A stretch of DNA of 64,000 bases from Blastococcus haudaquaticus (GTDB taxonomy: Bacteria; Actinomycetota; Actinomycetes; Mycobacteriales; Geodermatophilaceae), in contig NZ_OCNK01000003.1 in assembly GCF_900230285.1 (NCBI RefSeq), positions 186,001 through 250,000 of the forward strand, given 5' to 3'. A program made the translations under genes and the position numbers. The notes under the pieces are model-generated. The model ran no database searches. It saw only the letters and a program-made list of their open reading frames with translations, and was not told where the DNA came from. Shown here in pieces: positions 1,983-32,315 of this stretch (position 1 is the stretch's first letter; the number at the start of each line of letters is the position of its first letter).

Positions 1983-1985
1983 GCG

Positions 1986-3893: not shown

Positions 3894-3899
3894 CCCGGC

Positions 3900-3915
3900 G
3901 GCCCCGTCCGGGGCC
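3900..3915 (+). terminator. GC hairpin after the low-complexity gene
   Basis: GGCCCC, a 4-base loop, then GGGGCC, seven bases after the stop at 3893 and before menB. There is no T-run, as is usual in high-GC actinobacteria, so it is only a candidate terminator. Confidence 0.4.
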
Positions 3916-3932
3916 CGGATAGGTTCGTGGGC

Positions 3933-4820
3933 ATGAGCGCCCGCGACGACGTCTCCGAGATCTTCCACAGCTCCGCCTGGGCGCCGGTCGACGGCTTCGA
4001 CTTCTCCGACATCACCTACCACCGCGCGGTCGACGCGGGCGTCGTCCGCATCGCCTTCGACCGGCCCGAGGTGCGCAATGCGTTCCGGCCGCAGTCGGTC
4101 GACGAGCTGATCACGGCGCTGGAGCACGCCCGGCTGTCCACCGACGTCGGCTGCGTGATCCTCACCGGCAACGGACCCAGCCCCAAGGACGGCGGCTGGG
4201 CGTTCTGCTCCGGCGGCGACCAGCGGGTCCGTGGGAAGTACGGCTACGAGCACGCGCAGGGTTCCAGCGGCCGGCTGCACATCCTCGAGGCGCAGCGGTT
4301 GATCCGCTTCATGCCCAAGGTCGTCATCTGCGTCGTCCCCGGGTGGGCCGCCGGCGGCGGGCACAGCCTGCACGTCGTCTCCGACCTGACGCTCGCGAGC
4401 GCCGAGCACGCCCGGTTCAAGCAGACCGACGCCGACGTCGGCAGCTTCGACGGCGGCTTCGGCTCCGCCTACCTCGCCCGCCAGGTCGGCCAGAAGTTCG
4501 CCCGCGAGATCTTCTTCCTGGGCGACGAGTACACCGCGCAGGACGCCCACGCCATGGGCATGGTCAACCGCGTCGTCCCGCACGCCGAGCTCGAGGCCAC
4601 GGCGCTGGACTGGGGCCGGAAGATCGTGGCCAAGAGCCCGACCGCCCAGCGGATGCTCAAGTACTCGTTCAACCTGATCGACGACGGCCTGGTCGGGCAG
4701 CAGCTCTTCGCGGGGGAGACGACCCGGCTGGCCTACATGGCCGAGGAGGCCGTCGAGGGGCGCGACGCCTTCCTCGAGAAGCGCGCCCCCGACTTCAGCC
4801 GCTTCCCGTGGCATGTGTAA
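3933..4820 (+). CDS. menB: 1,4-dihydroxy-2-naphthoyl-CoA synthase
   Basis: A 295-residue crotonase-fold enzyme that closes the second ring of menaquinone by Dieckmann-type condensation of O-succinylbenzoyl-CoA. It carries MenB-specific segments: GGWAFCSGGDQRVRG near residues 88-102, the oxyanion-hole region VPGWAAGGGHSLH, and QTDADVGSFDGGFGS with the conserved Asp and Gly residues of MenB rather than generic enoyl-CoA hydratases. Length fits the actinobacterial enzymes. ATG at 3933 is used; a GTG two codons upstream is possible. No other men gene is in the window. The flavoprotein at the left edge could act on the same pathway, but that is inference. Confidence 0.93.
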   Translation: MSARDDVSEIFHSSAWAPVDGFDFSDITYHRAVDAGVVRIAFDRPEVRNAFRPQSVDELITALEHARLSTDVGCVILTGNGPSPKDGGWAFCSGGDQRVRGKYGYEHAQGSSGRLHILEAQRLIRFMPKVVICVVPGWAAGGGHSLHVVSDLTLASAEHARFKQTDADVGSFDGGFGSAYLARQVGQKFAREIFFLGDEYTAQDAHAMGMVNRVVPHAELEATALDWGRKIVAKSPTAQRMLKYSFNLIDDGLVGQQLFAGETTRLAYMAEEAVEGRDAFLEKRAPDFSRFPWHV

Positions 4821-4844
4821 GGGCCTTTGTGGCCATAAAGGCCC
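4821..4844 (+). terminator. perfect hairpin directly after menB
   Basis: GGGCCTTT, loop GTGGCCAT, AAAGGCCC: an 8-base perfect stem starting on the base after the menB stop codon. The position suggests a terminator or RNA-stability hairpin. There is no T-run. Confidence 0.6.
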
Positions 4845-4873
4845 GGTAGAGGGCCCATGACGAGGAGGACAAC

Positions 4874-5206
4874 GTGATCGTCGAGGTCGTGACGGGCACC
4901 GAGGAGCGTCCGGAGGCGCGGGTCGTCGACGTCGACGACCTGGGCCGGCTGCACCTGGCCCTCGGCCAGGTGACCGACGAGGAGGCCGCGCAGGTGCTGG
5001 AGCGAGCCGGCCTCGGCCGGATCCAGGACAGCGAGACGGCGTTCCTGGACGTCGCCGCCCTGCACGCCGCCGCGCAGCCCCGCGCCACCGGTCCCGACTG
5101 GCAGGCCGACTGGGACCGGATGATCGCCCATGCCCGCACCCAGGGCTGGCTGTCCGAGGACGGGGCGACCGTCAGGGTGCACGTGGAGAGCGCCGCCGGC
5201 GCCTGA
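4874..5206 (+). CDS. hypothetical acidic 110-residue protein
   Basis: A 110-residue soluble acidic protein with no transmembrane segment and no motif I recognise. A strong GAGGAGG ribosome site precedes the GTG at 4874, and base composition at third codon positions fits a real gene. The N-terminal half is beta-like, the middle (DEEAAQVLERAGL) is predicted helical, and the C-terminus carries WQADWDRMIAHARTQGW, a helical tryptophan-rich stretch. It lies between menB and a TetR gene with its own leader, so no function can be inferred from context. Confidence 0.7.
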   Translation: MIVEVVTGTEERPEARVVDVDDLGRLHLALGQVTDEEAAQVLERAGLGRIQDSETAFLDVAALHAAAQPRATGPDWQADWDRMIAHARTQGWLSEDGATVRVHVESAAGA

Positions 5207-5353
5207 ACGGACTCCCGGAGCGGGATTTCGCGCGGTACGCCAGAATTCAAGTACTCAGGTACCCAACAGTTGTGCCCCGCGGATCATTGTGGTCGGTCCG
5301 CCGACACGCCAGGATGTCGCGGTGCGTATGACGTCGGGACACGGAATCTGGTC

Positions 5354-5965
5354 ATGAGCGGGACGCCCGGGCGCCCGCTCAGCTCGGAGCTGTCCGAGCA
5401 GCTGCTCTCGGTGGCGGTGGACATCCTCGCCGAGGAGGGCTGGGGGCGGCTCAACAGCGACCGGATCGCTGCCCGGGCCCGGGCGGGCAAAGCGGGGATC
5501 TACCGCCGATGGCCCACCATGGCGGCCCTCGCCCGCCACGCCGTGGGTCGGTTCCGGCTGGTCACCGTCCCCGACGACGGCGGGTCGCTTCGGGCGGACC
5601 TCGTCTCGCTGGTCTCCCGGTGGACCCTGCCGCTGGACCGCGAAGAGCGGGCCGTGGCGAGCATCGTCGGAGCGGCGCGGCACGAGGAGCAGCTGCGGGA
5701 GGGTCTCGACGACGCACTCGTCCACCCGCTCGCCGCGGCCGTGGACGAGCTGGCCCGGCGGTCGGCCGCCCGGGGTGAGCCCGTCGATCCCGACCGGTTG
5801 GCCCTGCTGGGATCGGTGCTGCAGGCCTTCTGGTGGCAGCGGTACACCGCCGCCGGCGACGGCGCGATGAGTGGCGAGGCCGTGGAACTGGTGGTCGACG
5901 ACGTCCTGGTGCCGATCGTGGCCCTGACGTCGGGCGCGCGCCGGCCGGAGCCGGCGACCGTCTGA
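5354..5965 (+). CDS. TetR/AcrR-family transcriptional regulator
   Basis: A 203-residue one-component regulator. An N-terminal helix-turn-helix of about 50 residues (AEEGWGRLNSDRIAARA, then KAGIYRRWP) matches the TetR DNA-binding domain in which the conserved Tyr follows the recognition helix; here it reads IYRRW. The remaining 140 residues form the variable all-helical ligand-binding and dimer domain with a C-terminal TetR_C-type tail. ATG at 5354 is used because translation upstream lacks conserved sequence. It converges with the second TetR gene (stops 10 bases apart). Ligand and target are unknown. Confidence 0.88.
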   Translation: MSGTPGRPLSSELSEQLLSVAVDILAEEGWGRLNSDRIAARARAGKAGIYRRWPTMAALARHAVGRFRLVTVPDDGGSLRADLVSLVSRWTLPLDREERAVASIVGAARHEEQLREGLDDALVHPLAAAVDELARRSAARGEPVDPDRLALLGSVLQAFWWQRYTAAGDGAMSGEAVELVVDDVLVPIVALTSGARRPEPATV

Positions 5966-5975: not shown

Positions 5976-6689
5976 TCAGCCGGCCCGGCGGATCGCGGCC
6001 GGGGGCCAGCCCGTCTCGGAGCCGTCGCCCGCGCCGGTGACGCTGCCGATCTGGGACTGGATGCCGGCGAGCACCCGGTCGATCAGCTGCTCGAGGGCGG
6101 CCACCCGGTCGGGGACGTCGCCGTGGACGGTGTCCTGGCGGCGATGCTCGACGAACACCACCCGGGAGGCGGCCAGCCAGATGGCGGCGGTCAGCGGCGC
6201 GACGATCGCCGACGACGAGAGGTGGGGCGCGCCGGGCTCGGGATCGGTCAGCCACGCCTCGGCCAGCGCAGCGCTCAGGCGGCGCTCGGCCTCCTGGATG
6301 ACCCGCTGCTCGTGCGCGGCCAGGGCCGGGCAGGCGGCCAGCGCGGCCGTGAACGACCGGCCCTCCGCGGACAGGTGCAGGGTGCCGAAGTGCCCGGCAC
6401 CCTCCACGAGGTGCCGGCGCAGGGCGGTCAGCGGTGAGGTCCCGGGCGGCCTGCCGCGGACCGCCTCGGCCGGAGCCTCGACCCAGGGGAGACGGCCGTC
6501 GAAGAACAGGTCTTCCTTGGTCACGAAGTGGTTGAAGACCGTCTGGACGGCGACGTCCGCCTCGCGGGCGATGTCGGCGATCGTGACCGCGTCGAAGCCG
6601 CCGTCGGCGAACATCCGCTGGGCGACGTCGCGGATGTGTCGTCGCGTGTGGGCCTTCTTCGCGGCGCGACGGTCCTGGATCTCACTCAC
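5976..6689 (-). CDS. TetR-family transcriptional regulator
   Basis: A 237-residue regulator. Residues about 10-55 form the TetR helix-turn-helix, with FDAVTIADIAREADVAVQTV as turn and recognition helix and the typical FNHFVTKEDLF following. The C-terminal domain is helical and unassigned. The sequence ends with a short flexible tail rich in Gly and Pro. It is transcribed toward the previous TetR gene, which it does not resemble outside the DNA-binding domain. The 80 bases upstream hold small palindromes that could be its own operator. Confidence 0.87.
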   Translation of the reverse strand: MSEIQDRRAAKKAHTRRHIRDVAQRMFADGGFDAVTIADIAREADVAVQTVFNHFVTKEDLFFDGRLPWVEAPAEAVRGRPPGTSPLTALRRHLVEGAGHFGTLHLSAEGRSFTAALAACPALAAHEQRVIQEAERRLSAALAEAWLTDPEPGAPHLSSSAIVAPLTAAIWLAASRVVFVEHRRQDTVHGDVPDRVAALEQLIDRVLAGIQSQIGSVTGAGDGSETGWPPAAIRRAG

Positions 6690-6751
6690 CGTCGCAGCAT
6701 AGGCACAGAAAGTATCCGCTGCTGGATGGCGACACGGGCGCCGGCCGACAT

Positions 6752-6762
6752 TTCGTTACGAA
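6752..6762. promoter_or_regulatory. candidate operator palindrome
   Basis: TTCGTTACGAA is a perfect 11-base palindrome between the start of the TetR gene at 6689 and the stop of the next leftward gene. TetR proteins commonly bind such sites next to their own gene. This is inference only. Confidence 0.3.
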
Positions 6763-6774
6763 CCGGGGCCGTTA

Positions 6775-7203
6775 TCAGCGGGACGCCGGCTCGGCGGCCC
6801 AGTCGTCGCGCACCGACCGCGCCCAGGACTCGACGAGGGCGGGCAGGTCGATGACGTCGAGGTCGGCGGCGACGTCCGCGATCGTCATCCGCCACACCCG
6901 CGGGCGCCGGGTCGCGTCGACGTCCCCGGCGGCACCGAGACGGTCGAGGGCCGCCCGCAACCGCTCGTCGTCCCCGGGCACGGGGTGCTGGGCGTCGTAG
7001 GCGGCGTCGGCAAGCTCGACGGCCGAGGCCGTCCCCGCGTGCGTGCCGGCCTCCTCCCGGAGGCCGTGCAGGGTCACCTCGAAGAGCCGGGTGCAGGCGG
7101 GGGACCCGCCCGGATGGGACGGGCCGCCGTCGGTCAGCGGGACGAGGACCGCACCGCACCCCGGACAGCTCTGCGTGGGCTGGGGCAGGTGGTCGTCGGG
7201 CAC
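6775..7203 (-). CDS. DUF5946-like zinc-motif protein
   Basis: A 142-residue protein with an N-terminal CPGCG followed by DGGPSHPGGSPAC, the arrangement seen in actinobacterial DUF5946 proteins, where the cysteines and histidine probably bind a metal. The C-terminal region (WRMTIADVAADLDVIDLPAL) is conserved in style but has no known activity. The GTG at 7203 is preferred; an ATG 32 codons upstream would add a Pro/Ala-rich stretch that overlaps the divergent gene's leader. The 117 bases between it and the dehydrogenase would serve as a divergent promoter region. Confidence 0.65.
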   Translation of the reverse strand: MPDDHLPQPTQSCPGCGAVLVPLTDGGPSHPGGSPACTRLFEVTLHGLREEAGTHAGTASAVELADAAYDAQHPVPGDDERLRAALDRLGAAGDVDATRRPRVWRMTIADVAADLDVIDLPALVESWARSVRDDWAAEPASR

Positions 7204-7319
7204 TCGACCGATGGTGCCGCACGCGGACCGGTGTCGCGGGTCCGGGGCTGCCGCGGAGGCCGGTGCGGTGGGGTCGGTGCGGAGGGGTCGGTGCGGCACC
7301 CGGTGCCCGGCCAGGCAGC

Positions 7320-8447
7320 ATGGCGACCGTGCGAACGCGAGCTGCAGTCCTGCGCCGGCCCGAGACCGAGTACGAGATGGTGGAGCTCGAGGTCCTCGAC
7401 CCTGGCCCGGGCGAGGTGCTGGTCGAGATGGCCTACGCCGGTCTGTGCCACTCCGACGAGCACCTGCGGCACTCCAACCCGGGCGGGCGGTACCCGATCG
7501 TCGGCGGGCACGAGGGGTCCGGCGTCGTCCTCGCCGTGGGTCCCGGCGTCCTCTCCGTCGCCCCGGGGGACCACGTCGTCACCAGCTTCCTGCCCGCCTG
7601 CGGGCACTGCCGGTTCTGCGCGCAGGGCCGCTCCAACCTCTGCGACAAGGGCGCGACGATCGCCAAGGGCGAGCTGCCGACCGGCACGTACCCCTTCCGG
7701 CTGGACGGCGAGCCGCTCGGCGGGTTCTGCATGATCGGGGCCTTCGCCCGGCACAGCCTGCTCAGCGAGTTCTCCTGCGTGCGGATCGATCCCTGGATCG
7801 CCCTGGACACCGCGGCCCTGGTCGCGTGCAGCGTGCCGACCGGCTGGGGTTCGGCGGTGTACTCGGGCGGGGTGCGCCCCGGCGACACCGTGGTCGTCGT
7901 GGGGCTCGGCGGGGTCGGGATCAACGCCGTCCAGGGCGCCGTGCACGCGGGCGCGATGAACGTCGTCGGCGTCGACCCGGTGGCGATGAAGCGCGAGTTC
8001 GCCGGGTCGGTGGGTGCCACGCACACGGTGGCCGGCACGGACGAGGCCGCCGGCCTCGCCCGTCAGCTGTCGCGGGGCACCGGTGCCGACGTCGTGATCG
8101 TGACCGTGGGGAAGATGTCCGCCGAGGCCTATGCCGGCGCGTCGTCGTCGCTGGGCAAGGGCGGGACGCTGGTGCTCACGGCCCTGGCGGACCGGCCGGA
8201 GGACGGCAACGTCTCCCTGGGCGGGCAGCTGGCCACCGTCTTCGAGCAGCGCATCCAGGGGTCGCTGTTCGGGTCGTGCAACCCCTTCAAGGACATCCCG
8301 ATGCTGCTGCGCATGCACGAGGAGGGCCGGCTGGAGCTCGACCGGCTGATCACCCGGCGGTACTCGCTGGACCAGCTCAACGAGGGCTACCGCGACCAGG
8401 CGGCGGGCGAGACCATCCGCGGGCTGCTGGACCATTCCCTGACCTGA
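7320..8447 (+). CDS. zinc-dependent alcohol dehydrogenase, NDMA-dependent type
   Basis: A 375-residue medium-chain dehydrogenase/reductase. Catalytic zinc ligands are Cys43 (GLCHSDEH) and His64-Glu65 (GGHEGSG); the structural zinc loop has Cys94, 97, 100 and 108 (CGHCRFCAQGRSNLC). The nucleotide-binding VVGLGGVGINAVQGA follows. The long TYPFRLDGEPLGGFCMIGAFA region is typical of the NDMA-dependent actinobacterial alcohol dehydrogenases that retain tightly bound NAD(H) and serve mycothiol- or mycofactocin-linked alcohol oxidation. The mycofactocin cluster is not in this window. ATG at 7320 is the only start giving the normal N-terminus. Confidence 0.9.
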   Translation: MATVRTRAAVLRRPETEYEMVELEVLDPGPGEVLVEMAYAGLCHSDEHLRHSNPGGRYPIVGGHEGSGVVLAVGPGVLSVAPGDHVVTSFLPACGHCRFCAQGRSNLCDKGATIAKGELPTGTYPFRLDGEPLGGFCMIGAFARHSLLSEFSCVRIDPWIALDTAALVACSVPTGWGSAVYSGGVRPGDTVVVVGLGGVGINAVQGAVHAGAMNVVGVDPVAMKREFAGSVGATHTVAGTDEAAGLARQLSRGTGADVVIVTVGKMSAEAYAGASSSLGKGGTLVLTALADRPEDGNVSLGGQLATVFEQRIQGSLFGSCNPFKDIPMLLRMHEEGRLELDRLITRRYSLDQLNEGYRDQAAGETIRGLLDHSLT

Positions 8448-8486
8448 GCCCGGTTGGACGGCGCGGGGGCTGGGCAGCTCCCGCGC

Positions 8487-9152
8487 ATGAGTGAAGCGCG
8501 CATCGCCGTCCTCGACGTCGACGGCACCCTGGTCGACACCAACTACCAGCACGCGCTGGCCTGGTACCGCGCGCTGCGGTCGCTGGGGGAGACCTACCCC
8601 GTGTGGCGGGTCCACCGGCTGATCGGGATGGGTGGCGATCAGCTGGTCAGCGCGCTCGGTGGCGACGAGGTCGAGGAGCGGATCGGCGACGCCGCCCGCG
8701 AGCGCTGGGTCGAGGAGGTCGACCCGATGATGGGCGAGACCGAGCTGCTGCCCGGCGCGCGCGAGCTGATCGTCGCCCTCAAGGAGCGCGGCCACCGGGT
8801 CGTGCTGGCCAGCTCCGGCAAGCCGCACCACGTCGAGCGCGCCCTGGACCTGCTCGACGCCCGCGAGCTGGCCGACGCGTGGACCACCAGCGAGGACGTG
8901 GAGGCGACGAAGCCGGCGCCGGACCTGCTGCAGGTGGCGCTGAAGAAGCTCGGCGAACCCGTGGACGCGCCGGCCATGGTCATCGGCGACTCGGTCTACG
9001 ACGTCGAGGCGGCCAAGAACGCCGGGATGCCGGCGATCGTCGTCCGGTCCGGCGGGTTCGGCGACGACGAGCTGCGCGACGCCGGCGCCCTGGGCATCTA
9101 CGACACCCCGGCCGACCTCACCGCCGCGCTGGACGAGACCGACCTCTCCTGA
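8487..9152 (+). CDS. HAD-superfamily phosphatase (beta-phosphoglucomutase/Gph-like)
   Basis: A 221-residue HAD hydrolase. Motif I is DVDGTLVDT (nucleophile and acid Asp at about 9 and 11), motif II is the Ser in VVLASSGKP, motif III the Lys in EATKPAPD, and motif IV GDSVYDVEAA. The alpha-helical cap of about 70 residues between motifs I and II marks subclass I, the class with phosphoglycolate phosphatase and beta-phosphoglucomutase. Substrate is not predictable. It starts 39 bases after the alcohol dehydrogenase and may be co-transcribed. Confidence 0.88.
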   Translation: MSEARIAVLDVDGTLVDTNYQHALAWYRALRSLGETYPVWRVHRLIGMGGDQLVSALGGDEVEERIGDAARERWVEEVDPMMGETELLPGARELIVALKERGHRVVLASSGKPHHVERALDLLDARELADAWTTSEDVEATKPAPDLLQVALKKLGEPVDAPAMVIGDSVYDVEAAKNAGMPAIVVRSGGFGDDELRDAGALGIYDTPADLTAALDETDLS

Positions 9153-9232
9153 CCCGGCCTGTGGTCTGCGGTCCGCCGTCGGGGGCCTGCGGGCAAGGGC
9201 CCGCTGCCTCTGGGCGGTGGGGTGCTCGCAAC

Positions 9233-18862: not shown

Positions 18863-21442
18863 TCAGCCGACGGCCGGGACGGCGACCAGTGCGGCGACGT
18901 CGTCGATGGTCAGGTCGTGCGGCTGGGTGCGGCCGTTCAGCAGCTCCACGCCGGTGTCGAGGACGGCGGCGTGCAGGGCCGGGGTGCTGATGCCCCCGGC
19001 GATGGCGATCAGGCCGAAGTCCTTCGTCGTCCGCAGGATGGCGCTGAACACCTGCATGGCGCGCCCGGTGTCGTCGCGGGAGGCCAGGGCGGCGACGTCG
19101 ACGCGGACCATGTCGAGGGGGACGCGCGCGAGCAGCGCGAACAGGCTGTGCCCCATGCCGTAGTTGTCGAGGCAGAGCTTGACGCCGCTGCGGCGCACCG
19201 CCTCGAGCTCGGGCACCAGTGCCGCGGACGCGGTCAGCAGCGTCTCCTCGGTGAAGGAGAGCAGCAGCCGGTGCGCCGGGAGACCGGAGGCGTTGAGTGC
19301 GCCGGCGACCTCGCCGGCCAGGCCGTCGGCCGTGGCGAAGCCGGCCGGCAGGCTCACCGCGACGCCGATGTCCTCGGCGGACAGGCCGGCGACCGCGCGG
19401 GTGGCCTCGTGCAGCAGCCAGGTCAGCAGCTCCGCCGCCCGGCCCTGCCGCTCGGCGAAGCCCCACAGCTCGAGGCCGCGCACCTCGGCGTGCTCGGGGT
19501 GGGACCACGTCGGGACGGCGTGCAGCCACTCGATGCGGCCGTCGGGGGTGCAGGCGGCGTCCAGGCGCACGGCGAAGACGCCCTCGGCGACGACGTCGTG
19601 GAAGTCGGGCTGGCTCTCGACGCCCGCGTTGGCGGTCTCGACGCCGGCGAGCCGCACGCAGCCCTTGCCGGCGGCCTTGGCCTCGCGCAGCGCGGCGTCG
19701 GCCTCGCGGAAGGCCACCTGGCCTCCGGCCGCGCCGATCGTCGCGACGCCGACGCTGGCACCGACCGCGAAGGCCCCGTCGCTGGTGCGGTGGGGCATGC
19801 CGAGGGTGTCCACGACGCGCCGGGCGACGTCGTCGGCCTCGGCGAGGGTGCCGGTGACGAGGACGGCGAACTCGTCGCCGCCGAGGCGGGCGACCAGGTC
19901 GTCCTCGCGGACGACGGTGTGCAGCCGGCGGGCCACCTCGACCAGCAGCTGGTCGCCGGCCTCGTGCCCGGCGACGTCGTTGACGGCCTTGAAGCCGTCG
20001 AGGTCCAGGACGAGCAGGCAGCGCTGGTCGTGGGACGGGGTGCCCAGCTCCTTGAAGAGCATGGCGCGGTTGGGCAGCGCGGTCAGGTGGTCGGTGTAGG
20101 CCATGCGCTCGAGCTCGCGCTCGCGGTGGCGGCGGGTGGTGACGTCGCGCAGGTAGAGCACGCGCCGTCCGCTCCCCGGGCGCTCGGTGGCGGTGGCCTC
20201 GATCTCCCGGGACGGGCCGTCGGCGCGGACCACCGAGAAGTGCAGCGGCGGGCCGTCCCCGCCGGGAACGTGGAGGGTGCCCGCTCGGACGGCGTCGCGG
20301 TCGCCGGCGTCGACGAGGTCGAGCAGGCAGACCTCGTCCTCGGCGTCGGCACCGAGACCGAGCAGGCTGCGGGCGGCCGGTGAGGTGAACAGGAGGCGGA
20401 ACTCCCCGTCCATGATGGCGATGCCGTCGGAACTGGCCTCGATCAGCTCGCGGAAGTCCTCCTCGCTGCGGACGAGGTCCTCGGTCATCCGGCCGTCCTC
20501 GCGCATGCGCAGCACGAGGCGGACCGCCATGAGGGTGAGGACGACCGCGATACCGATCTCGGCGGCGGTGGAGTGCGAGTGCTCCCGCCACTCCATCAGC
20601 CCGATGGCGACGGGGAGGGACAGCAGCGCGCCGACGACGAGCGCCATGCCGATCGGGCTGACGACGGGGGCGGAGGCCTTGGCGGTGTGGTCGGCGAACC
20701 GCCGGGGCGCGAAGCTCGCCGCCAGGACGACGGTCTGCAGGCCCATGGCGACCGAGACGTCGGACACCGCCGTCCACAGGGCCGAGGGGTCGACGATGGC
20801 CATGGCCTCGGCGACGCCCGCGGTGGCCTGCCAGGCGACGGCGCCGATGAGGATGCTGGCCGAGCGGCGCAGCGCCGCCGTCGACACGGTGCACAGCGCA
20901 CCGGCGCCACCGAGCATCGCGGCGCCGTAGGCGCCGTACATGAGCACGAGGGAGCGCAGGTCCTCCGGGGCGTCGGCGGGGTTGACCAGCGGAGTCCGGA
21001 GCACCTCGGTGACGACGAGCAGGGCGACGGTGATGACCAGGCCGTCGACGACGAGCGCGAGCCAGCGGGTGCGCCTGACCCGGCGGGCCAGCAGCCCGCA
21101 GATCAGCAGCGGGGCGGTGGCGCCGGCGAAGAGGAGGACGTCGTCGAAGCCGAAGCCGTCCAGCTCCGGGCCCGGGAAGCCCGCGGCGAGCCACTGGGCG
21201 GTCATGAAGAGGAGCGAGGCGTACCCGAGGATGCGCCACGGGCGGCCGGCGTCGCGGGCCATGGGCCGGGCGATGCGGAAGGCCTCCCACGACGAGGAGG
21301 CGGCGACGGCGCCGAGGACGATCTCGTCCCACTGCATGCCGGTGCCGTCGGGCGCGCTGAACGGGACGGTGAGCGCGAGGCCGAGGAGGCCCAGCGGCAC
21401 CGTCCAGCGGACGCTCCGGGGGATGTCGCGCAGGCCGATCAC
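18863..21442 (-). CDS. membrane diguanylate cyclase with degenerate EAL domain
   Basis: An 859-residue protein. About eight or nine hydrophobic helices occupy residues 12-310, a PAS sensor follows at about 325-440, then a GGDEF domain (445-600) and an EAL-like domain (610-855). The cyclase signature GGDEF is intact at 521-525, and the product-inhibition I-site RxxD is present at 512-515. The EAL motif is replaced by HAV at 641-643, and the usual DDFGTGYSSL reads DNYGMGHSLF, so phosphodiesterase activity is unlikely. It should make cyclic-di-GMP under control of the membrane and PAS parts. GTG at 21442 overlaps the stop of the upstream partner. Confidence 0.88.
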   Translation of the reverse strand: MIGLRDIPRSVRWTVPLGLLGLALTVPFSAPDGTGMQWDEIVLGAVAASSSWEAFRIARPMARDAGRPWRILGYASLLFMTAQWLAAGFPGPELDGFGFDDVLLFAGATAPLLICGLLARRVRRTRWLALVVDGLVITVALLVVTEVLRTPLVNPADAPEDLRSLVLMYGAYGAAMLGGAGALCTVSTAALRRSASILIGAVAWQATAGVAEAMAIVDPSALWTAVSDVSVAMGLQTVVLAASFAPRRFADHTAKASAPVVSPIGMALVVGALLSLPVAIGLMEWREHSHSTAAEIGIAVVLTLMAVRLVLRMREDGRMTEDLVRSEEDFRELIEASSDGIAIMDGEFRLLFTSPAARSLLGLGADAEDEVCLLDLVDAGDRDAVRAGTLHVPGGDGPPLHFSVVRADGPSREIEATATERPGSGRRVLYLRDVTTRRHRERELERMAYTDHLTALPNRAMLFKELGTPSHDQRCLLVLDLDGFKAVNDVAGHEAGDQLLVEVARRLHTVVREDDLVARLGGDEFAVLVTGTLAEADDVARRVVDTLGMPHRTSDGAFAVGASVGVATIGAAGGQVAFREADAALREAKAAGKGCVRLAGVETANAGVESQPDFHDVVAEGVFAVRLDAACTPDGRIEWLHAVPTWSHPEHAEVRGLELWGFAERQGRAAELLTWLLHEATRAVAGLSAEDIGVAVSLPAGFATADGLAGEVAGALNASGLPAHRLLLSFTEETLLTASAALVPELEAVRRSGVKLCLDNYGMGHSLFALLARVPLDMVRVDVAALASRDDTGRAMQVFSAILRTTKDFGLIAIAGGISTPALHAAVLDTGVELLNGRTQPHDLTIDDVAALVAVPAVG

Positions 21443-23364
21443 GGCGTCACCGCCGGGAGGGCGGCGACGTCGGGGAGGGCGGGGACGTCCGGTACGTCCC
21501 ACGCGCCGGCGGCCAGCTGGGCGGCCTCGAGCGGGCGGGCGAAGACGTAGCCCTGCAGGTAGCGGTGCCCCATGTCGCGCAGCAGGGTCAGGACGGCGGC
21601 GTTGGTGACCCCCTCGACGATGACGGGCAGGTCGAGGCTGGAGCCGAGCTGGAGGACCGCGCGGCACATGGCGCGGCGGGCGGGGTCGTGCTCGACGTTG
21701 GACAGGAAGTACTGGTCCATCTTGAGCACGTCGATCGGCATACCGACCAGGTAGGCCAGCGACGACCAGCCGGTGCCGAAGTCGTCGACGGCGACGCGGA
21801 CGCCGAGCCGGCGGAGGGCGGTGAGGTCCTCGATGACGTGCGAGTCGTCGAGCAGCACCGACTCGGTGATCTCGACGATCAGCCGCGAGGCGGGCAGGGC
21901 GCTGACCTCCAGGGCGGCGAGGACGTCGGGGACGAGCTCGCCGCTGCGCACCTGGTGGGCCGACACGTTGACCGCGACGCCCAGGTCGGTCCCGTCGAGC
22001 GCGGCGACCGTGCTGCACGCCTCGCGGAGCACCCACCGGCCGACCTCGGTGATCAGCGGCGACTCCTCGGCGAGCGGCACGAACTCGGTGGGGGAGACGT
22101 CGCCGTAGAGCGGGTGGCGCCAGCGCAGCAGCGCCTCCACCGACACGGTGCGGTGCAGGACGACGTCGACGACGGGCTGGAAGACCAGGCGCAGTTCGCC
22201 GCGTCCGAGGGCGTGTTCGAGGTCCGCGCGCAGGACGGCGCGCCGGTCCTCCTCGACGCGCAGGGCATCGTCGTACCGGTGGACGCAGCCCGGGCCGGCG
22301 GTGGCGGCACTGCGCAGGGCGAGCTCGCCGCGGCGCAGCGCCTCGCCGGTGTCGATCCCGGCGCTGAGGGTGGTCACACCCGCGACGGCGGACAGGCGGA
22401 GGGAGCCGCCCGGGACGGGGACCGGCCCGACGGCGTCCACCAGGCGGGCGCCCACGGTCTCGGCGTCGGCGATCGTGCCCTCGACGAGGACGACGAAGTC
22501 GCCGTCCTTGCCGCGGGCCAGCCAGTCCTCCCCGCGCAGCGCGCGGGTGAGCCGGGCGGTGAGCGCGCGCAGGACGGCGGTCTCGGTGTCGGGCGCGAGG
22601 ACCTCGGTGGCCAGGCCGCTGATGCGGACGAGGGCGAGGCTGGTCGGCCGGCTCTGCGCGTCGCGGTGCACCGCGCCCAGGCGGCGGACGAGGGCGGCGC
22701 GGTTGGGCAGGCCGGTGACGGGGTCGGTGAGGGAGAACTCGGACAGGTCCGCGTCGAGCCCGGTCACGGGCCCGCGCGGGCTGATGTCGCGGCAGTAGAG
22801 CACCAGCGCGCCGACGTCGGGGTCGTCGCGCAGGTCGCGGACGGTGGCCTGGATGAGGCGCCATCGCCCGTCGGCGTGCCGGACCCGGGCGGTGCGGACG
22901 GCCAGCTCCTCCGGGCGGCTGCGGTCGGCGTTCAGGGCGCCGACCAGGGCGGCGCGGTCGTCGGGGTGCACGACGGAGGCGACGGGCCGGCCGTGGACCG
23001 CCGCCGGGTCGAAGCCCAGCAGGTCGGCGATGCCCTGGGACGCGAACGTGATGCGGAGCCGGTCGTCGAGGATGACCACCGGGTCGACGCTGCTCTTCAC
23101 GAGCGTGCGGAAGGAGGACTGGCTGCGCTGCAGGGCGCCGGTCAGGCGTCGCTGGCGGGTCCAGAGCGTGGCCTGGAAGCCGACCAGGACGGCCAGCCCG
23201 GCGGCGGCCAGGACGGCGCCGAGACCGGTGGGCACGGCCACGAGGCCGCCGACGACGAGGGAGACGGCGACCACGGCCGCGGGAACGGCGACGAGCCCGG
23301 TGCGCCCCGAGGGGGACGCCGGGAGCACAGGCCCTGGCTGCCCCAGGACGGGGGCGGTGGTCAC
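21439..23364 (-). CDS. PAS-GGDEF(degenerate)-EAL cyclic-di-GMP phosphodiesterase
   Basis: A 641-residue protein. Two hydrophobic helices lie at about 22-63, a PAS domain at 80-195, a GGDEF-like domain at 210-365 and an EAL domain at 375-620. The GGDEF signature is reduced to KDGDF (286-290), so cyclase activity is unlikely. The EAL domain is intact: EAL at 410-412, VNVSAHQ, EITESVLL, DDFGTGWSSL at 527-536, LKMDQYFL and LQGYVFARPL. It should hydrolyse cyclic-di-GMP to pGpG. The degenerate GGDEF may bind GTP as a regulator, as known in other proteins. The start at GTG 23364 is the first with the membrane segment in place; its stop overlaps the next gene. Confidence 0.88.
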   Translation of the reverse strand: MTTAPVLGQPGPVLPASPSGRTGLVAVPAAVVAVSLVVGGLVAVPTGLGAVLAAAGLAVLVGFQATLWTRQRRLTGALQRSQSSFRTLVKSSVDPVVILDDRLRITFASQGIADLLGFDPAAVHGRPVASVVHPDDRAALVGALNADRSRPEELAVRTARVRHADGRWRLIQATVRDLRDDPDVGALVLYCRDISPRGPVTGLDADLSEFSLTDPVTGLPNRAALVRRLGAVHRDAQSRPTSLALVRISGLATEVLAPDTETAVLRALTARLTRALRGEDWLARGKDGDFVVLVEGTIADAETVGARLVDAVGPVPVPGGSLRLSAVAGVTTLSAGIDTGEALRRGELALRSAATAGPGCVHRYDDALRVEEDRRAVLRADLEHALGRGELRLVFQPVVDVVLHRTVSVEALLRWRHPLYGDVSPTEFVPLAEESPLITEVGRWVLREACSTVAALDGTDLGVAVNVSAHQVRSGELVPDVLAALEVSALPASRLIVEITESVLLDDSHVIEDLTALRRLGVRVAVDDFGTGWSSLAYLVGMPIDVLKMDQYFLSNVEHDPARRAMCRAVLQLGSSLDLPVIVEGVTNAAVLTLLRDMGHRYLQGYVFARPLEAAQLAAGAWDVPDVPALPDVAALPAVTP

Positions 23365-23611
23365 ACGGCTCTGATCGGGAACTGTGGAGGTCCGCTGCAG
23401 CGTCGTTACCGATTCGTCACCCGGGTGGGTGACGCCGCGTTCGCCGTCTTCTCCGGAAGTTGCGGGTGTGTGTGGCCCGGGTGAGGGGTACGAGGGGGTT
23501 TCGTTCCGCCCGTCCGGCGATGCCTCGTTCCTGGGTCGTCGGAGGACGAGCGTCGGGGAGCAGTGAAGGTCGTGCTGCTGTCGGCGAGCGGCAGCGGTGG
23601 GGGAGGGAATC

Positions 23612-24499
23612 ATGAGCCAGCACCAGGGGCGACACCGCATCCGCCGCGAGGAGCCCACTCGCGAAGGCGTCCGGGAGCGGGTGGTCCCCGCGCTCTGGGG
23701 CGCCAACGGCACGCTGGTCGCCGCCGCGGTCGTGACCCTCCTCGTCGGGGGCGCGGAGCCGAGGGACGTGCTGGCGGATCCGCCGACGTTCGGGCCGTCG
23801 GAGACGGGGCCCAGGGGCTCGGGCGGGGACTCGGGCGGGGACGCGGGCGGGGACGCGGGAATCGTCCCGGTGGCGAGCGAGGTGCCGGAAGGTGGCGGCA
23901 TGGGCCGCAGCTGGCCCGGTGCCGGCTGGTCCGCGCTGTGGGCGGACAGCTCGACGCCCGGCAGTTTCGCGGCGCTGTGCGACGGGCTGACGTCCGTGCG
24001 GCTGCAGCCGGCATCGGCGGCCACGGCGGCCTGGGTGGCCGGTCCGGTGAGCGGGCAGCCGGCGTCGGGTGTCCCCGCTCCGGCCGGTGCGCCGCCGGCT
24101 ACGGGCGCCGCTCCCGCCGGTGCACCGCCGGCGTCATCCGGCGGGTCGACCGGGTCGACCGGGTCGTCACCGACCGCACCGACGGTTCCCCAGAGCGGGA
24201 CGCCGGTGGTGACCGCGCCGGAGCCGGTGACGTCGACCATCGACCCCGTGGTCGACGCGGCGGAGCCGGTCGTCGAGACCGTCACGGACCCGGTGGTCGA
24301 GGTGGCGCAGCCGGTGGTCGAGGCTGCCCAGCCGGTCGTCGAGGCGGCGGAGCCGGTCGTCGAGACCGTCACGGAACCGGTGGTCGACGCCGTCGAGCCG
24401 GTGACGGAGCCGGTGACGGCTCCGGTCGAGAAGGTGCTGCCCGCCCCGGTCACCCAGACCGTCGAGGAGCTGCCGGTGGTCGGCGGGCTGGTGGGCTGA
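23612..24499 (+). CDS. repeat-rich membrane-anchored or secreted protein
   Basis: A 295-residue protein not assigned to a family. A basic N-terminus is followed by one hydrophobic stretch at about 35-47, a Gly/Asp-rich segment, a short ordered part (GWSALWADSSTPGSFAALCDGL) and a Pro/Ala/Gly linker. The C-terminal 100 residues repeat EPVVE-type units (AEPVVETVT, AQPVVEAA and variants), giving an extended valine/proline rod. GGGAGG precedes the ATG at 23612. It diverges from the cyclic-di-GMP operon with 247 bases between, so a shared regulatory region is possible. Confidence 0.65.
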   Translation: MSQHQGRHRIRREEPTREGVRERVVPALWGANGTLVAAAVVTLLVGGAEPRDVLADPPTFGPSETGPRGSGGDSGGDAGGDAGIVPVASEVPEGGGMGRSWPGAGWSALWADSSTPGSFAALCDGLTSVRLQPASAATAAWVAGPVSGQPASGVPAPAGAPPATGAAPAGAPPASSGGSTGSTGSSPTAPTVPQSGTPVVTAPEPVTSTIDPVVDAAEPVVETVTDPVVEVAQPVVEAAQPVVEAAEPVVETVTEPVVDAVEPVTEPVTAPVEKVLPAPVTQTVEELPVVGGLVG

Positions 24500-24560
24500 C
24501 GCGACCGCGGAGCCTCGCGGGTCGCGCGCCGGAAAGCCTCGGTGTGACACCCTCCCGCGC

Positions 24561-24746
24561 ATGGGGAAGCTCGCCGCGGTTCTCCTGACGGTGCTCGTGA
24601 TCGTGGAGCTGATCCTGATCGTGGGCATCGCCGGAGCGCTCTTCTGGGTCGGTGCGACGGGGACGATCGTCGCCGCCGCAGCCATGCTGGTCGTCGCTCT
24701 GGTGGCCGGGGTCGTCGCGCTGCGTGCGATGCGCGCCAGGCAGTGA
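24561..24746 (+). CDS. small two-helix membrane protein
   Basis: A 61-residue hydrophobic protein with helices at about 4-29 and 34-53 and a basic end (RAMRARQ). It is nearly all Val, Ala, Leu and Gly. ATG at 24561 is the only start. No family is recognised. It stands 62 bases after the repeat-rich gene and may share its transcript. Confidence 0.6.
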   Translation: MGKLAAVLLTVLVIVELILIVGIAGALFWVGATGTIVAAAAMLVVALVAGVVALRAMRARQ

Positions 24747-24907
24747 CGAAGATTTCGCTGGCGCCCAGCCGAATCCGCCGTCCGGGTGCTTGCCGGACGA
24801 CCTCCGGGGGCGGAAGCTCCCCTCGTGATCGGTGACGCGGAGGTCCTGGACCCGGTTCAGCGCGACGCGGACCGCGTCGTCTTCTGCCGCTGCGGCGGTG
24901 CGGGGCG

Positions 24908-25027
24908 GTGGTCCACGTGCCGGTCAACCAGCCCGGGGAACCCGAAATCTACGTGCGCTCCACCTTCACGTGCACCTGGGACCGGCCCGGACCCCACGAG
25001 CCGCTGCTGCCCCCGCGTCGTCGCTGA
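24908..25027 (+). CDS. possible short ORF or decayed gene end
   Basis: This 39-residue frame from GTG 24908 (VNQPGEPEIYVRSTFTCTW and a basic end) has natural-looking composition and ends nine bases before a strong palindrome. A second frame from GTG 24826 carries VVFCRCGG just upstream. The two together look like one small gene broken by a frameshift, but a genuine short ORF cannot be excluded. Confidence 0.25.
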   Translation: MVHVPVNQPGEPEIYVRSTFTCTWDRPGPHEPLLPPRRR

Positions 25028-26872: not shown

Positions 26873-29800
26873 GTGAAGACGTGGCTCGACGCCTGGCCGG
26901 TGTACCGGCAGCTGACCGGCTCTGATCCCTTGGGGCGCGGCAAGGCTGCGCGCAGCAAGGCGACCGATGCGGTGGTGTCGCGCACCGCGACCGCCGACAA
27001 GGTGGTCAAGAGCGTGTGCCCGTACTGCGCGGTGGGTTGCGCGCAGAACGTCTACGTGAAGGACGAGAAGATCGTCCAGATCGAGGGCGACCCGAACTCG
27101 CCGATCAACCGCGGCCGGCTGTGCCCCAAGGGCAGCGCCAGCAAGCAGCTGGTCACCAGCCCGACCCGCGTCACCACGGTCAAGTACCGCCGTCCGTACG
27201 GGACGGAGTGGGAGGACCTCGACCTCGACACGGCGATGGAGATGATCGCCGACCGCGTCCTGGAGGCCCGCCGCAAGGGCTGGCAGGACGAGGACGGTCC
27301 GGCGGACAACCGGCACCGGGTCAACCGCACGATGGGCATCGCGAGCCTCGGAGGGGCGACCCTCGACAACGAGGAGAACTACCTCATGAAGAAGCTGTAC
27401 AGCGCGATGGGCGCTGTGCAGATCGAGAACCAGGCCCGCATATAGCACTCTGCGACGGTGCCCGGTCTGGGTGCCTCGTTCGGCCGTGGTGGCGCAACCA
27501 ACTTCCTGGAAGACCTCGCGAACTCCGACTGCATCGTCATCGAGGGTTCGAACATGGCCGAGTGCCATCCCGTCGGTTTCCAGTGGGTGACCGAGGCGAA
27601 GGCCCGCGGCGCCAAGGTCATCCACATCGACCCGCGCTTCACCCGCACCAGCGCGATCGCCGACCTGCACGTTCCGCTGCGCATCGGCACCGACATCGCG
27701 TTCCTCGGCGGCCTGATCAAGTACGTGCTCGACAACGAGCTGTACTTCAAGGACTACGTCGTCGCCTACACGAACGCGGCCGCGCTGGTCGGTGAGGACT
27801 TCGTCGACGCGGAGGACATGGACGGCCTGTTCTCCGGCTTCGACGCCGAGAACCGCATGTACGACGAGGACAGCTGGCAGTACGAGCCCGAGGAGGCGGA
27901 GCACTCGGGCGCCGAGCAGCCGGCGGAGGCCGCCGAGCAGGAGCAGAGCGACGACCACCCGGACGTCAAGAAGTCCGACCGTGCGCAGGCGGCCGGCAGC
28001 GGCGGCCCGACGATCCCGTCGAAGCCCAAGCGCGACGAGACGCTGCAGCACCCGCGCTCTGTTTTCCAGGTGCTCAAGCGGCACTTCGCCCGCTACACGC
28101 CGGAGATGGTGTCCGAGGTCTGCGGCGTCGAGCCGGAGGTCTTCGAGCAGGTCGCGAAGTGGGTCACGTCCAATAGCGGCCGCGACCGGACGACGGCCTG
28201 GGTGTACTCGGTGGGCTGGACGCAGCACAGCGTCGGCGCGCAGTACATCCGCACCTGCTCGATCCTGCAGACGCTGCTCGGCAACATCGGCCGTCCCGGC
28301 GGCGGGATCATGGCCCTGCGCGGGCACGCCAGCATCCAGGGCTCGACCGACGTCCCGACGCTGTACAACCTGCTGCCCGGCTACCTGCCGATGCCGCACG
28401 CCATGCAGCACTCGACCCTCGACGAGTACGTGGCCGACGCCGCCGGCAAGGCCGGCTTCTGGGGCAACAAGCGGTCGTACATGACCAGCCTGCTCAAGGC
28501 ATGGTGGGGCGAGCACGCGACGGCGGAGAACGACTTTGCCTTCGACTACCTGCCGAAGATCAACGGCGACCACAGCTCGTACCGCACGATCGCCGACATG
28601 ATCCAGGGCAAGGTGTCGGGCTACTTCCTGGTCGGGGAGAACCCGACGGTGGGGCACCCCAACAGCCGGATGAACCGGTTCGGGCTGGCCAACCTCGACT
28701 GGCTGGTCGTTCGCGACCTGCAGATGATCGAGTCGGCGACCTTCTGGAAGGAAGGCCCGGAGATCGAGACGGGAGAGCTGGCCCCCGAGACGATCGGCAC
28801 CGAGATCTTCTTCATGCCGGCGGCGACGCACGTGGAGAAGGAAGGCACCTTCACGCAGACCCAGCGGGTGCTGCAGTGGCGGCACAAGGCGGTCGAGCCG
28901 CCGAACGACGCCCGGAGCGACCTGTGGTTCTTCTTCCACCTGGGCCGGATGCTGCGCGAGCGGCTGAAGGACTCGACCGACCCGCGGGACCGTCCGCTGC
29001 TCGAGCTCACCTGGGACTACCCGGTCGAGGGCGAGACGCAGGACCCGAGTGCCGATGCGGTGCTCCGCGAGATCAACGGCTTCGGTGCTGACGGCGAGCT
29101 GCTGAACTCCTACATGCAGATGAAGGACGACGGCTCGACCACCGGCGGGTGCTGGATCTACACCGGCGTCTACGCCGACGGGGTCAACCAGGCCGCGCGG
29201 CGCAAGCCGGCCAAGGAGCAGGGCGCCGTCGCCTCGGAGTGGGGCTGGGCCTGGCCGCTGAACCGCCGCATGCTCTACAACCGCGCCTCGGCCGACCCGG
29301 ACGGCAAGCCGTGGAGCGAGCGCAAGAAGTACGTGTGGTGGGACGAGGCCAACGGCGAGTGGACCGGCCTGGACATCCCGGACTTCGAGAAGAACAAGCG
29401 CCCGGACTACGTGCCGCCCGAGGGTGCCAAGGCGCAGGACGCGCTCGCCGGCAACGACCCGTTCGTCATGCAGGGCGACGGCAAGGCGTGGCTGTTCGCG
29501 CCGGCCGGTGTCGTCGACGGTCCGCTGCCGACGCACTACGAGCCGGCCGAGTCGGTGGTCGAGAACGGTCTCTACAAGCAGCAGGCGAACCCGACCCTGG
29601 AGATGATCGAGGGGCCGTGGAACCGGGCGAACCCGGCGCACAGCGACGTCTTCCCGTTCCAGGTGACCACCTACCGGCTCACCGAGCACCACACGGCCGG
29701 GGCGATGAGCCGCACGCTGCCCTATCTCGCCGAGCTGCAGCCGGAGTTCTTCGTCGAGGTGAGCCCGGAGCTGGCGCAGCTGCGCGGGCTGACGCACAAC

Positions 29801-30175
29801 GACTACGCGACGCTGGTCAGCTCCCGGACAGCGATCGAGGCGAAGGTGCTGGTGACCGAGCGGGTGCGGCCGATCAAGCTGCGCGACGGCACCGTCGTCC
29901 ACCAGATCGGCATGCCCTACCACTGGTCCTACAGCGGCATCTCCACCGGAGACGCGGCCAACGACCTGCTGGGCATCGTCATGGACCCCAACACCCACAT
30001 CCAGGAATCGAAGGTCTCCTCCTGCGACATCGTCGCCGGGCGGCGGCCGCGCGGACCGGAGATGCTCGAGCTGGTGGAGTCCTACCGCCGGCGGGCGGGC
30101 GTGGACTCCGGCCGGGTCGGGGTGAACGGCCGCGATCCGGTGGCCGCTGACGCAGGAGAGGGCTCGACGCTGTGA
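26873..30175 (+). CDS. fdhA: formate dehydrogenase alpha subunit, selenocysteine encoded by UAG
   Basis: A 1100-residue molybdopterin enzyme oxidising formate to CO2. Translation from GTG 26873 (KTWLDAWPVYRQLTG) has the [4Fe-4S] ligands Cys49, 52, 56 and 84, then at codon 191 meets TAG (27443-27445) in the context NQARI-x-HSATVP. In homologues this residue is Sec or Cys, the Mo ligand. The frame continues without interruption (GLGASFGRGGATN, NMAECHPVGFQW) for 909 residues. An acidic low-complexity insert spans about 335-393. Sec insertion at UAG, not termination, is the reading supported by the downstream SECIS. There is no Tat signal, so the subunit should face the cytoplasm. Its stop overlaps fdhB. 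Confidence 0.93.
27443..27475 (+). promoter_or_regulatory. UAG selenocysteine codon and bacterial SECIS hairpin
   Basis: The TAG at 27443-27445 is followed, after exactly 11 bases, by GGTGCCC (27457-27463), loop GGTCT (27464-27468) and GGGTGCC (27469-27475). All seven pairs form, two as G-U wobbles. The 11-base spacing and the GGUCU apical loop match the Escherichia coli fdhF SECIS recognised by SelB. Confidence 0.9.
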
Positions 30176-31242
30176 CGACGATCAGTTCGGCGAGCGCGGC
30201 CTTCACGGGCAACGACCCCGGGAACCGGCTGTACGGGCCGGTGCCCGACGTGTCGGAGCAGGCCGGCTACGTGGACGAGCACCCGAAGCGGGTCGGGTTC
30301 TTCACCGACACGTCGGTCTGCATCGGCTGCAAGGCCTGCGAGGTGGCGTGCAAGGAGTGGAACACGCTCCCGATGGACGACGCCCACGGCAAGCGGGACG
30401 CCATCGGCATGTCGGGCATGTCCTACGACAACACCGGGATGCTCGGCGCCAACTCGTGGCGGCACGTCGCCTTCATCGAGCAGACCCGCACGGTGGACCT
30501 GCCGATGCCGTCGATCGGCCTGCCGGGGGAGAAGAACCGGCCCGAACTGGCCGACCTGCCGGCCCCGGACACCGGCGACCTGGACACCACCGCCAAGGCG
30601 CAGGCCAGCGTGCTCAACGCCGAGGCGCTGAGCGAGTTCGACCCGCAGACCGGTCAGACCGGGGCGGACAAGCAGATCCGCTGGCTGATGAGCTCCGACG
30701 TCTGCAAACACTGCACCCACGCCGGTTGCCTCGACGTCTGCCCGACCGGTGCGCTGTTCCGCACCGAGTTCGGCACGGTGGTCGTGCAGCAGGACATCTG
30801 CAACGGCTGCGGCTACTGCGTGCCCTCCTGCCCGTACGGGGTCATCGACCAGCGCAAGGACGACGGCCGGGTCTTCAAGTGCACGATGTGCTACGACCGG
30901 CTGACCGACGGGCTTCAGCCGGCGTGTGCCTCCGCGTGCCCCACCCAGTCGATCCAGTTCGGCGACCTCGACGAACTCCAGGCGCGGGCCGACGCCCGGC
31001 TGGCGACGCTCCAGGAGCAGGGCGTGGAGACGGCGCGGCTCTACGGGCGCGACGAGAACGACGGCGTCGGGGGAGCGGGAGCGTTCTTCCTGTTGCTCGA
31101 CGAGCCGGAGGTCTACGGCCTGCCGCCGGACCCGATCGTCACCACCCGCGACCTGCCGGCCATGTGGAAGGCGGCCGGCAAGGCGACGCTGATGATGATC
31201 GGTGTCGCGGCGACGGCGATCCTCGGTTCGCGGAGGCGATGA
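30172..31242 (+). CDS. fdhB: formate dehydrogenase iron-sulfur beta subunit
   Basis: A 356-residue electron-transfer subunit with four [4Fe-4S] sites: CIGCKACEVAC near residue 44, CKHCTHAGCLDVC near 180, CNGCGYCVPSC near 207 and CTMCYDRLTDGLQPACASAC near 235. It carries electrons from the molybdenum subunit toward the membrane. A hydrophobic stretch near the C-terminus (TLMMIGVAATAILG) with a basic end anchors it to the membrane, as in FdnH/FdoH. GTG at 30172 overlaps the fdhA stop (GTGA), so translation is coupled. Confidence 0.92.
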   Translation: MTTISSASAAFTGNDPGNRLYGPVPDVSEQAGYVDEHPKRVGFFTDTSVCIGCKACEVACKEWNTLPMDDAHGKRDAIGMSGMSYDNTGMLGANSWRHVAFIEQTRTVDLPMPSIGLPGEKNRPELADLPAPDTGDLDTTAKAQASVLNAEALSEFDPQTGQTGADKQIRWLMSSDVCKHCTHAGCLDVCPTGALFRTEFGTVVVQQDICNGCGYCVPSCPYGVIDQRKDDGRVFKCTMCYDRLTDGLQPACASACPTQSIQFGDLDELQARADARLATLQEQGVETARLYGRDENDGVGGAGAFFLLLDEPEVYGLPPDPIVTTRDLPAMWKAAGKATLMMIGVAATAILGSRRR

Positions 31243-32315
31243 CGGCGATGACGCAGGGGATCACGACGCCCGGGGCGGGCTGGCGGCGGGCGGACGGACC
31301 GCCGGCGCAGAAGACGCAGAAGCGGCGCCGCAAGGGCGGCGGGCGGCGCGGCCGCAACGCCGAGATCGCGATGGTCGACGAGGTCGAGTTCACCTCGTAC
31401 TACGGCCGGCCGATTATCAAACCGCCGGTGTGGAAGACGCCGGACGTGCCGCTGTACCTGTTCCTCGGGGGAGCGGCCGGCTCGTCGTCGATCCTCGCCG
31501 CGATGGCGGACCTGACGGATCGTCCGGCGCTGACGCGGGTCGCCCGGGTGACCGCCGGCGCGGGGTCGATCCTCTCGGTCGTGGCGCTGGTGCACGACCT
31601 GGGGCGGCCCGAGCGCTTCCTGCACATGCTGCGCGTGTTCAAGGTGACCTCGCCCCTGTCGGTGGGGACGTACATCCTGTCGCCGTTCAGCGCGGCGGCC
31701 GGCGCGACGGCGGCGGTGGAGCTGCTCGGCTGGTTCCCGCGGCTGAAGCGCTTCGGGGGAGTGGTCTCGGCACTGTTCGGCGGGCCGCTGGCCACCTACA
31801 CCGGCGTGCTGCTGGCCAACACCGCGGTGCCGTCGTGGCACCACTTCCACACGAAGCTGCCGTTCGTGTTCGGCGGCTCGGGCATGGCCGCGGGTGGCGG
31901 CATCTGCATGGCGTTCACGCCTGTCGACCAGGCCGGGCCCGCACGAAAGATGGCGGTGACCGGCGCGGTGATCGAGCTGGCCGTGGTGCACCAGGTGGAG
32001 AACGACATGAGCATCGTCTCGGAGCCATACCACGAGGGGCGGGCCGGCAAGCTGATGCGGGCCGCGAAGGCGTGCACCGCCGCGGGCGCCGGGCTGACCG
32101 TGCTGGCAGGACGCACCCGGGCCGGGGCAGTTGCGTCGGGGACCCTTCTGGCGGCCGGCTCGCTGCTCACCCGCTTCGGCGTCTTCGACGCCGGCATGGC
32201 CAGCGCGCGGGACCCGAAGTACACGGTCATCCCCCAGCGCGAGCGGGTCAAGGGTGCTGGCGACGGCAGCCTTCCAACAGGTACGAGCGTGCCAGCGCCC
32301 GACGTTGTCCTGTAG
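31239..32315 (+). CDS. NrfD-type membrane subunit of formate dehydrogenase
   Basis: A 358-residue polytopic protein of the NrfD/PsrC family, which passes electrons to quinone without heme b. A basic N-terminal 40 residues is followed by KTPDVPLYLFLGGAAGSSSI, the conserved first loop and helix, and about eight to nine hydrophobic helices, including VALVHDLGRPERFLHMLRVF and the FGSGMAAGG region. The ATG at 31239 overlaps the fdhB stop (ATGA). Together the three genes would form a quinone-reducing formate dehydrogenase. It is the last gene before the A/T-richer island. Confidence 0.87.
   Translation: MTAMTQGITTPGAGWRRADGPPAQKTQKRRRKGGGRRGRNAEIAMVDEVEFTSYYGRPIIKPPVWKTPDVPLYLFLGGAAGSSSILAAMADLTDRPALTRVARVTAGAGSILSVVALVHDLGRPERFLHMLRVFKVTSPLSVGTYILSPFSAAAGATAAVELLGWFPRLKRFGGVVSALFGGPLATYTGVLLANTAVPSWHHFHTKLPFVFGGSGMAAGGGICMAFTPVDQAGPARKMAVTGAVIELAVVHQVENDMSIVSEPYHEGRAGKLMRAAKACTAAGAGLTVLAGRTRAGAVASGTLLAAGSLLTRFGVFDAGMASARDPKYTVIPQRERVKGAGDGSLPTGTSVPAPDVVL

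Follow-up and report, generated by a model that had tools for sequence, protein, structure and literature searches.

The usual codon for selenocysteine (Sec) is UGA. Another assignment, UAG as Sec, was reportedly described by Mukai and colleagues in Angew Chem in 2016 for Geodermatophilus and Blastococcus. That work is cited for UAG-Sec in excerpts of PMC5330540 and PMC5133445; the excerpts of the former (2017) also describe tRNA-Sec with a CUA anticodon in Geodermatophilaceae, count three such genomes and give formate dehydrogenase, UGSC and AhpC as the genes with UAG in those three genomes.

Here we analyse a stretch of 64,000 nucleotides from Blastococcus haudaquaticus (the window), in which a formate dehydrogenase gene, fdhA, carries an in-frame TAG. 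The system resembles that of Mukai et al. (2016) in family, codon, CUA tRNA-Sec and enzyme, and only the individual genome differs; a CUA tRNA-Sec and a UAG formate dehydrogenase are likewise common to the host and to the Geodermatophilaceae treated in the excerpts of PMC5330540. Canonical UGA-Sec formate dehydrogenase is the same enzyme with the same SelA/SelB/SelD logic, and the place and loop of the hairpin behind the Sec codon in the host are shared with 11 related loci that have TGA. The host differs from the canonical system in having UAG instead of UGA and the anticodon CUA instead of UCA, and the competitor for the codon would be release factor 1 rather than release factor 2. UAG-Sec is already known for the Geodermatophilaceae and the host is a further member; what comes from the present analysis, with a possible overlap with Mukai et al. 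(2016), is the family-wide count, the genera with a UCA tRNA-Sec, the change in the anticodon stem and the invariant ATA codon in front of the Sec codon.

Results

The fdhA gene and its in-frame TAG

The features of the fdh region are listed in Table 1. The fdhA frame is open from position 26837, has a putative GTG start and ends with TGA; with TAG taken as a residue it is uninterrupted, with a single recoded codon in the context NQARI-x-H and 909 open codons downstream, which are retained in the full-length Geodermatophilaceae matches. FdhA scores 1922.7 bits against NF041513 (formate_DH_Act, actinobacterial; cut-off 1400) over almost its whole length, and its Pfam domains are Molybdop_Fe4S4, Molybdopterin and Molydop_binding. 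In this gene, which belongs to a known selenoprotein family, the Sec position is taken by an in-frame UAG; residue 191 is what we take to be the position of the Mo-ligating Sec or Cys. The fdhB-like subunit encoded next reaches 179.6 bits against TIGR01582 (FDH-beta), under the curated cut-off of 334.7. Elsewhere in the window, two long ORFs (18863-24927, minus strand) contain GGDEF/EAL-like sequence as judged by eye.

Table 1. Features of the fdh region, in window coordinates
Feature	Position	Strand	Evidence
fdhA, formate dehydrogenase catalytic subunit, 1100 residues	26873..30175	+	ORF, NCBIfam NF041513, Pfam domains
TAG, codon 191 of fdhA	27443..27445	+	read-through frame, 80 related loci
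bacterial SECIS hairpin, 7-pair stem, loop GGUCU	27457..27475	+	11 bases after TAG; covariation
fdhB-like iron-sulphur subunit	30172..31242	+	overlaps fdhA end; TIGR01582
NrfD-like membrane subunit of fdh operon, putative start	31251..32315	+	PF03916 NrfD, 3.8e-11

A scan of contigs with FdhA gave 499 related loci, of which the best 80 were analysed; the closest named relative among these is from Blastococcus tunisiensis (92% identity). The codon at the Sec position is TAG in 69 of the 80 and TGA in the other 11. Loci with TAG belong to Blastococcus, Geodermatophilus, Modestobacter, Klenkia, Goekera, Trujillonella and Geodermatophilaceae without a genus name, the exceptions being one metagenome-assembled genome labelled Frankiales bacterium and one UNVERIFIED_ORG Bacillus sp. 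AZ43; the loci with TGA are from other families, namely Amycolatopsis (four), Kibdelosporangium (two) and five other Actinobacteria. Within the family, 110 of 112 Geodermatophilaceae genomes have an fdhA match, and among the matches listed every one of at least 62% identity that spans residue 191 includes a TAG. G004, G005, G007, G008, G009, G012, G019, G020 and G024 each have a further formate dehydrogenase match, which is 70-73% identical and also carries TAG.

Four of the family genomes (G009, G024, G028 and G107) appeared to have a second recoded codon in fdhA, a TGA besides the TAG, and this candidate was rejected. All four have TAG at residue 191. The additional TGA of G009 and G028 corresponds to query residue 1094, where the gene ends; that of G024 and G107 is probably the gene end as well, since the main alignment stops before any TGA.

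A hairpin downstream of the TAG

The sequence GGUGCCC-GGUCU-GGGUGCC can form the hairpin listed in Table 1. Its folding energy is unexceptional (z = 0.79; of 200 shuffles, 159 are as stable or more so), and in this window of 71% GC energy alone is uninformative. Covariation was examined in 81 sequences (the window and the 80 loci), which make up 51 distinct rows that are related to each other. Across these, 99.2% of cells pair, and at three of the seven pairs one or more rows have both bases changed; the covariation score was attained by none of 500 shuffles, and pairing falls to 29-62% when the partner is shifted by one to three columns. The double changes are concentrated at one pair (columns 18 and 30; 26 of 28 cells), two further pairs have one double-changed row each and three pairs never vary, and the loop is invariant in all 81 sequences. 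Covariation alone, mainly at one pair, and not folding energy, thus supports the hairpin as a probable real structure. An earlier note on the window, made from its letters, had described the 1100-codon frame with TAG at codon 191 in the NQARI-x-H context, as well as the hairpin with its seven pairs, spacing and loop; the ORF translation confirms the former and the sequence bears out every detail of the latter, coordinates included.

tRNA-Sec and sel genes of the host

The tRNA-Sec model finds seven matches in the host genome (G000), an assembly of 4.51 Mb in 11 contigs that is 99.97% complete; one of them is a true tRNA-Sec (65.6 bits, cut-off 47) that fits the model over all 91 positions and has a long variable arm; ARAGORN identifies the remaining six as tRNA-Ser (three), Tyr, Leu and Met. 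The anticodon of the tRNA-Sec is CUA, and the genome is without a UCA tRNA-Sec. selA (421 bits) starts directly downstream on the same strand and is followed by selB (287 bits), with selD (388.7 bits; L018:9617-10624) 1.4 kb from the tRNA gene on the side opposite selA; all three exceed their curated cut-offs.

Anticodons across the Geodermatophilaceae

Anticodons were read for 111 tRNA-Sec loci from the 112 Geodermatophilaceae genomes. A CUA tRNA-Sec is present in 101 of these genomes, only a UCA tRNA-Sec in seven, and none was found in four; G058 is the single genome of the 101 with a UCA gene as well. The four in which none was found (G067, G071, G097 and G098) are 72-82% complete and in 300-630 contigs; the best leftover matches in G071 and G097 are tRNA-Ser, and those in G067 and G098 are weak. 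The seven UCA-only genomes fall in three genera (g5, g6 and g7). In two of them, G070 and G072, no more than about 0.7 kb separates the tRNA-Sec from selA and the two genes share a strand, which is also the arrangement of the host; SelA identity to the host protein is 63-65% for these two and 82% for G058. The position of the tRNA beside selA and these identities fit an anticodon switch that would have happened in place, within the Geodermatophilaceae.

The two classes of tRNA differ next to the anticodon loop as well: every CUA tRNA-Sec listed has C-G as the pair closing the loop (GGC CTCTAAA GCC) and every UCA tRNA-Sec listed has U-A (GGT CTTCAAA ACC). In the mRNA, the codon preceding the Sec TAG is the rare isoleucine codon ATA in all 69 loci (27440-27442 in the window), compared with 51 of the 2,749 other Ile codons in these frames; before the Sec TGA it is ATT in 11 of 11 loci, compared with 13 of 442 elsewhere. 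We read the fixed ATA or ATT and the anticodon-stem pair as putative constraints on the decoding site; descent is a further reason why related genes have them in common.

UAG is rare as a terminator. By a crude GC3 rule the window has 32 gene-like ORFs, which end with TGA (27), TAA (three) or TAG (two), and one of the two that end with TAG is the fdhA Sec site itself; in 19 kb around selC, TGA ends 12 of 12 gene-like ORFs.

Searches for further genes and for CUA tRNA-Sec outside the family

Searches for AhpC-TSA and for UGSC, the latter with a narrow DNA-level pattern that allows TCN serine codons only, revealed no second UAG-Sec gene in the host genome: none of the five AhpC-TSA matches has an in-frame stop, and neither of the two UGSC pattern matches is a plausible gene. 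The host differs in this respect, as far as the narrow UGSC pattern reaches, from the genomes for which the excerpts of PMC5330540 give AhpC and UGSC genes with UAG.

A pattern for class-II amber tRNAs, which would overlook any CUA tRNA-Sec whose loop or T-arm departs from it, matched 77 of 397 genomes of the order. Of these, 75 are Geodermatophilaceae, and outside the family only G230 and G236 matched. Both were rejected. The G230 tRNA (L341, G230:C194), a CUA tRNA-Sec in a genome of another family, is probably on a misbinned Geodermatophilaceae contig, as this is 4.8 kb long and carries a SelA fragment 80% identical to that of the host; in the matching stretch of G236 ARAGORN finds no tRNA. 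Among 60 viral matches to the amber class-II pattern (IMG/VR stretches L281-L340), ARAGORN finds 25 CUA tRNAs.

A relative with two Sec tRNAs

G058 is a draft assembly, probably of Geodermatophilus sp. LHW52908. Its CUA tRNA-Sec adjoins its only selA match and its fdhA carries TAG. The second tRNA-Sec has the anticodon UCA (81.8 bits; contig C17, L188:1173-1263, minus strand), and about 0.3 kb from it lies a divergent AhpD-like ORF (L188:1579-2157, plus strand). This ORF is of the CMD/AhpD class (Pfam CMD, 2e-6; TIGR01926, 1.7e-32, over the cut-off), with a match below the cut-off to NF041238, AhpD-related (seleno)protein (7.4e-14), and it has a TGA at residue 98, the site of the redox cysteine, in the second position of a CxxC-like motif.

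The AhpD-like protein was matched in 116 of 396 genomes of the phylum. Of the 30 best-placed loci, 25 align at residue 98, 15 with TGA and 10 with TGC or TGT, and five do not align there; in a selenoprotein one would expect just such an exchange of Sec (TGA) and Cys (TGC or TGT). AhpD and CMD selenoproteins with a CxxU motif are known from excerpts of PMC13188914. A hairpin after the TGA is unexceptional in energy (z = -0.47). One of the 30 loci, L346 (G540:C1, another member of the Actinobacteriota), has a TGA-bearing AhpD-like gene with a tRNA-Sec(UCA) in its flank.

The part of C17 that surrounds the pair (1000-5500) is 61% GC, and its tetranucleotide correlation with the selA contig is 0.768, compared with 0.944-0.991 for the rest of C17 (60 of 69 kb examined). 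Transposase-type ORFs flank the island: one side has a DDE_Tnp_1-associated domain (271-834), the other IS110 and integrase-core ORFs (6089-9184). Among the matches listed from the 112 Geodermatophilaceae genomes, a full-length homologue with the TGA occurs only in G058; G074 has a weak partial match (30% identity) with two TGA codons, and the other matches, of at least 31% identity, are without TGA. In a tblastn search of plasmids the AhpD-like protein matched 327 records, none of which reaches 60% identity, and a viral scan with it found no relative.

Discussion

The frame, the codon, the covarying hairpin, the CUA tRNA-Sec, selA, selB and selD, and the match of codon and anticodon across the family can all be read in the sequence. 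We conclude that UAG in host fdhA is very probably decoded as Sec by the CUA tRNA-Sec with SelA, SelB, SelD and the SECIS hairpin, with a probability of about 0.96. The earlier note had come to the same reading, naming a CUA tRNA-Sec and the presence of selA, selB and selD as what should be looked for and a tRNA-Sec with UCA only, or the absence of the sel genes, as what would speak against it; the genome and profile searches gave the first outcome on both counts, and TAG in 69 of the best 80 loci is further support. Its reference to Mukai et al. (2016) was also right, the work being cited in PMC5330540, in excerpts that report CUA tRNA-Sec.

From this set of genes we infer the charging of the tRNA, the binding of SelB and the presence of Sec in the protein. 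The fdhA mRNA would present UAG followed by the bacterial SECIS hairpin. The ordinary seryl-tRNA synthetase would presumably load the CUA tRNA-Sec with serine, and SelA would then turn the product into Sec-tRNA, using selenophosphate supplied by SelD; SelB would bind the hairpin and deliver Sec at the UAG in competition with release factor 1, and UAG codons without a hairpin would still terminate translation. As to its origin, an ancestor in the family, after the split from the UCA genera, may have switched anticodon and codon together, and the tRNA gene and selA would have stayed side by side through the switch.

Three other explanations of the in-frame TAG were weighed. Suppression of the codon might insert an ordinary amino acid, such as serine or cysteine, and give an enzyme without selenium. 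tRNA-Sec is first charged with serine, so that serine could be inserted if selenium were short; the complete set of selA, selB and selD beside the tRNA, together with the conserved, covarying SECIS hairpin, argues against this, and we regard it as very unlikely. Still less credible is that the CUA tRNA reads UAG as pyrrolysine, although ARAGORN does name the host gene tRNA-Pyl. The program puts the same label on each of the 102 CUA loci surveyed in the family, so that the label appears to follow the anticodon. The tRNA itself matches the tRNA-Sec model over its full length with a long variable arm and does not fit the structure of tRNA-Pyl, which presumably has a short variable loop; selA and selB follow it directly, other families have TGA at the same codon (11 loci), and residue 191 is the one that we take to be the Sec or Cys ligand of Mo. 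It is just as improbable that the TAG is a sequencing error or that the gene has decayed and ends at codon 191, even though decay is what an internal stop usually indicates: 69 loci from other genomes share the TAG at this position, which excludes chance and sequencing error, and the downstream frame is open in the host and kept in the full-length matches of the family.

Sec insertion at UAG would be the background of G058 too, and the simplest reading of its second tRNA is that this strain may have acquired a cassette of tRNA-Sec(UCA) and a UGA-selenoprotein gene, the latter for an AhpD-like peroxidase. A dual Sec code, in which the strain's own UAG system and the horizontally gained UCA/UGA-AhpD cassette would share its single SelA, and presumably SelB and SelD, is a tentative proposal from gene content, to which we give a little under even odds; the cassette could also be silent or decaying. 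We found no report of a genome with both CUA and UCA tRNA-Sec in a search of mainly open-licence literature; excerpts of PMC10778597, PMC8124441 and PMC7609411 mention Sec at UAG or sense codons and, in those excerpts, no such genome. If the proposal is true, the tRNA-Sec and the selenoprotein gene that travels with it would make up a portable Sec code, superimposed on another, and, if the cassette is expressed, a Sec codon could be gained with a mobile pair of tRNA and gene, and two such codons could coexist in a cell.

For the Geodermatophilaceae as a whole, a natural change of the Sec codon runs through most of a bacterial family. It came with a two-base change of the anticodon, a compensating pair where the anticodon loop closes and a rare codon that is fixed ahead of Sec, and, since relatives are found on both sides of the change, the joint switch of codon and tRNA can be studied directly.
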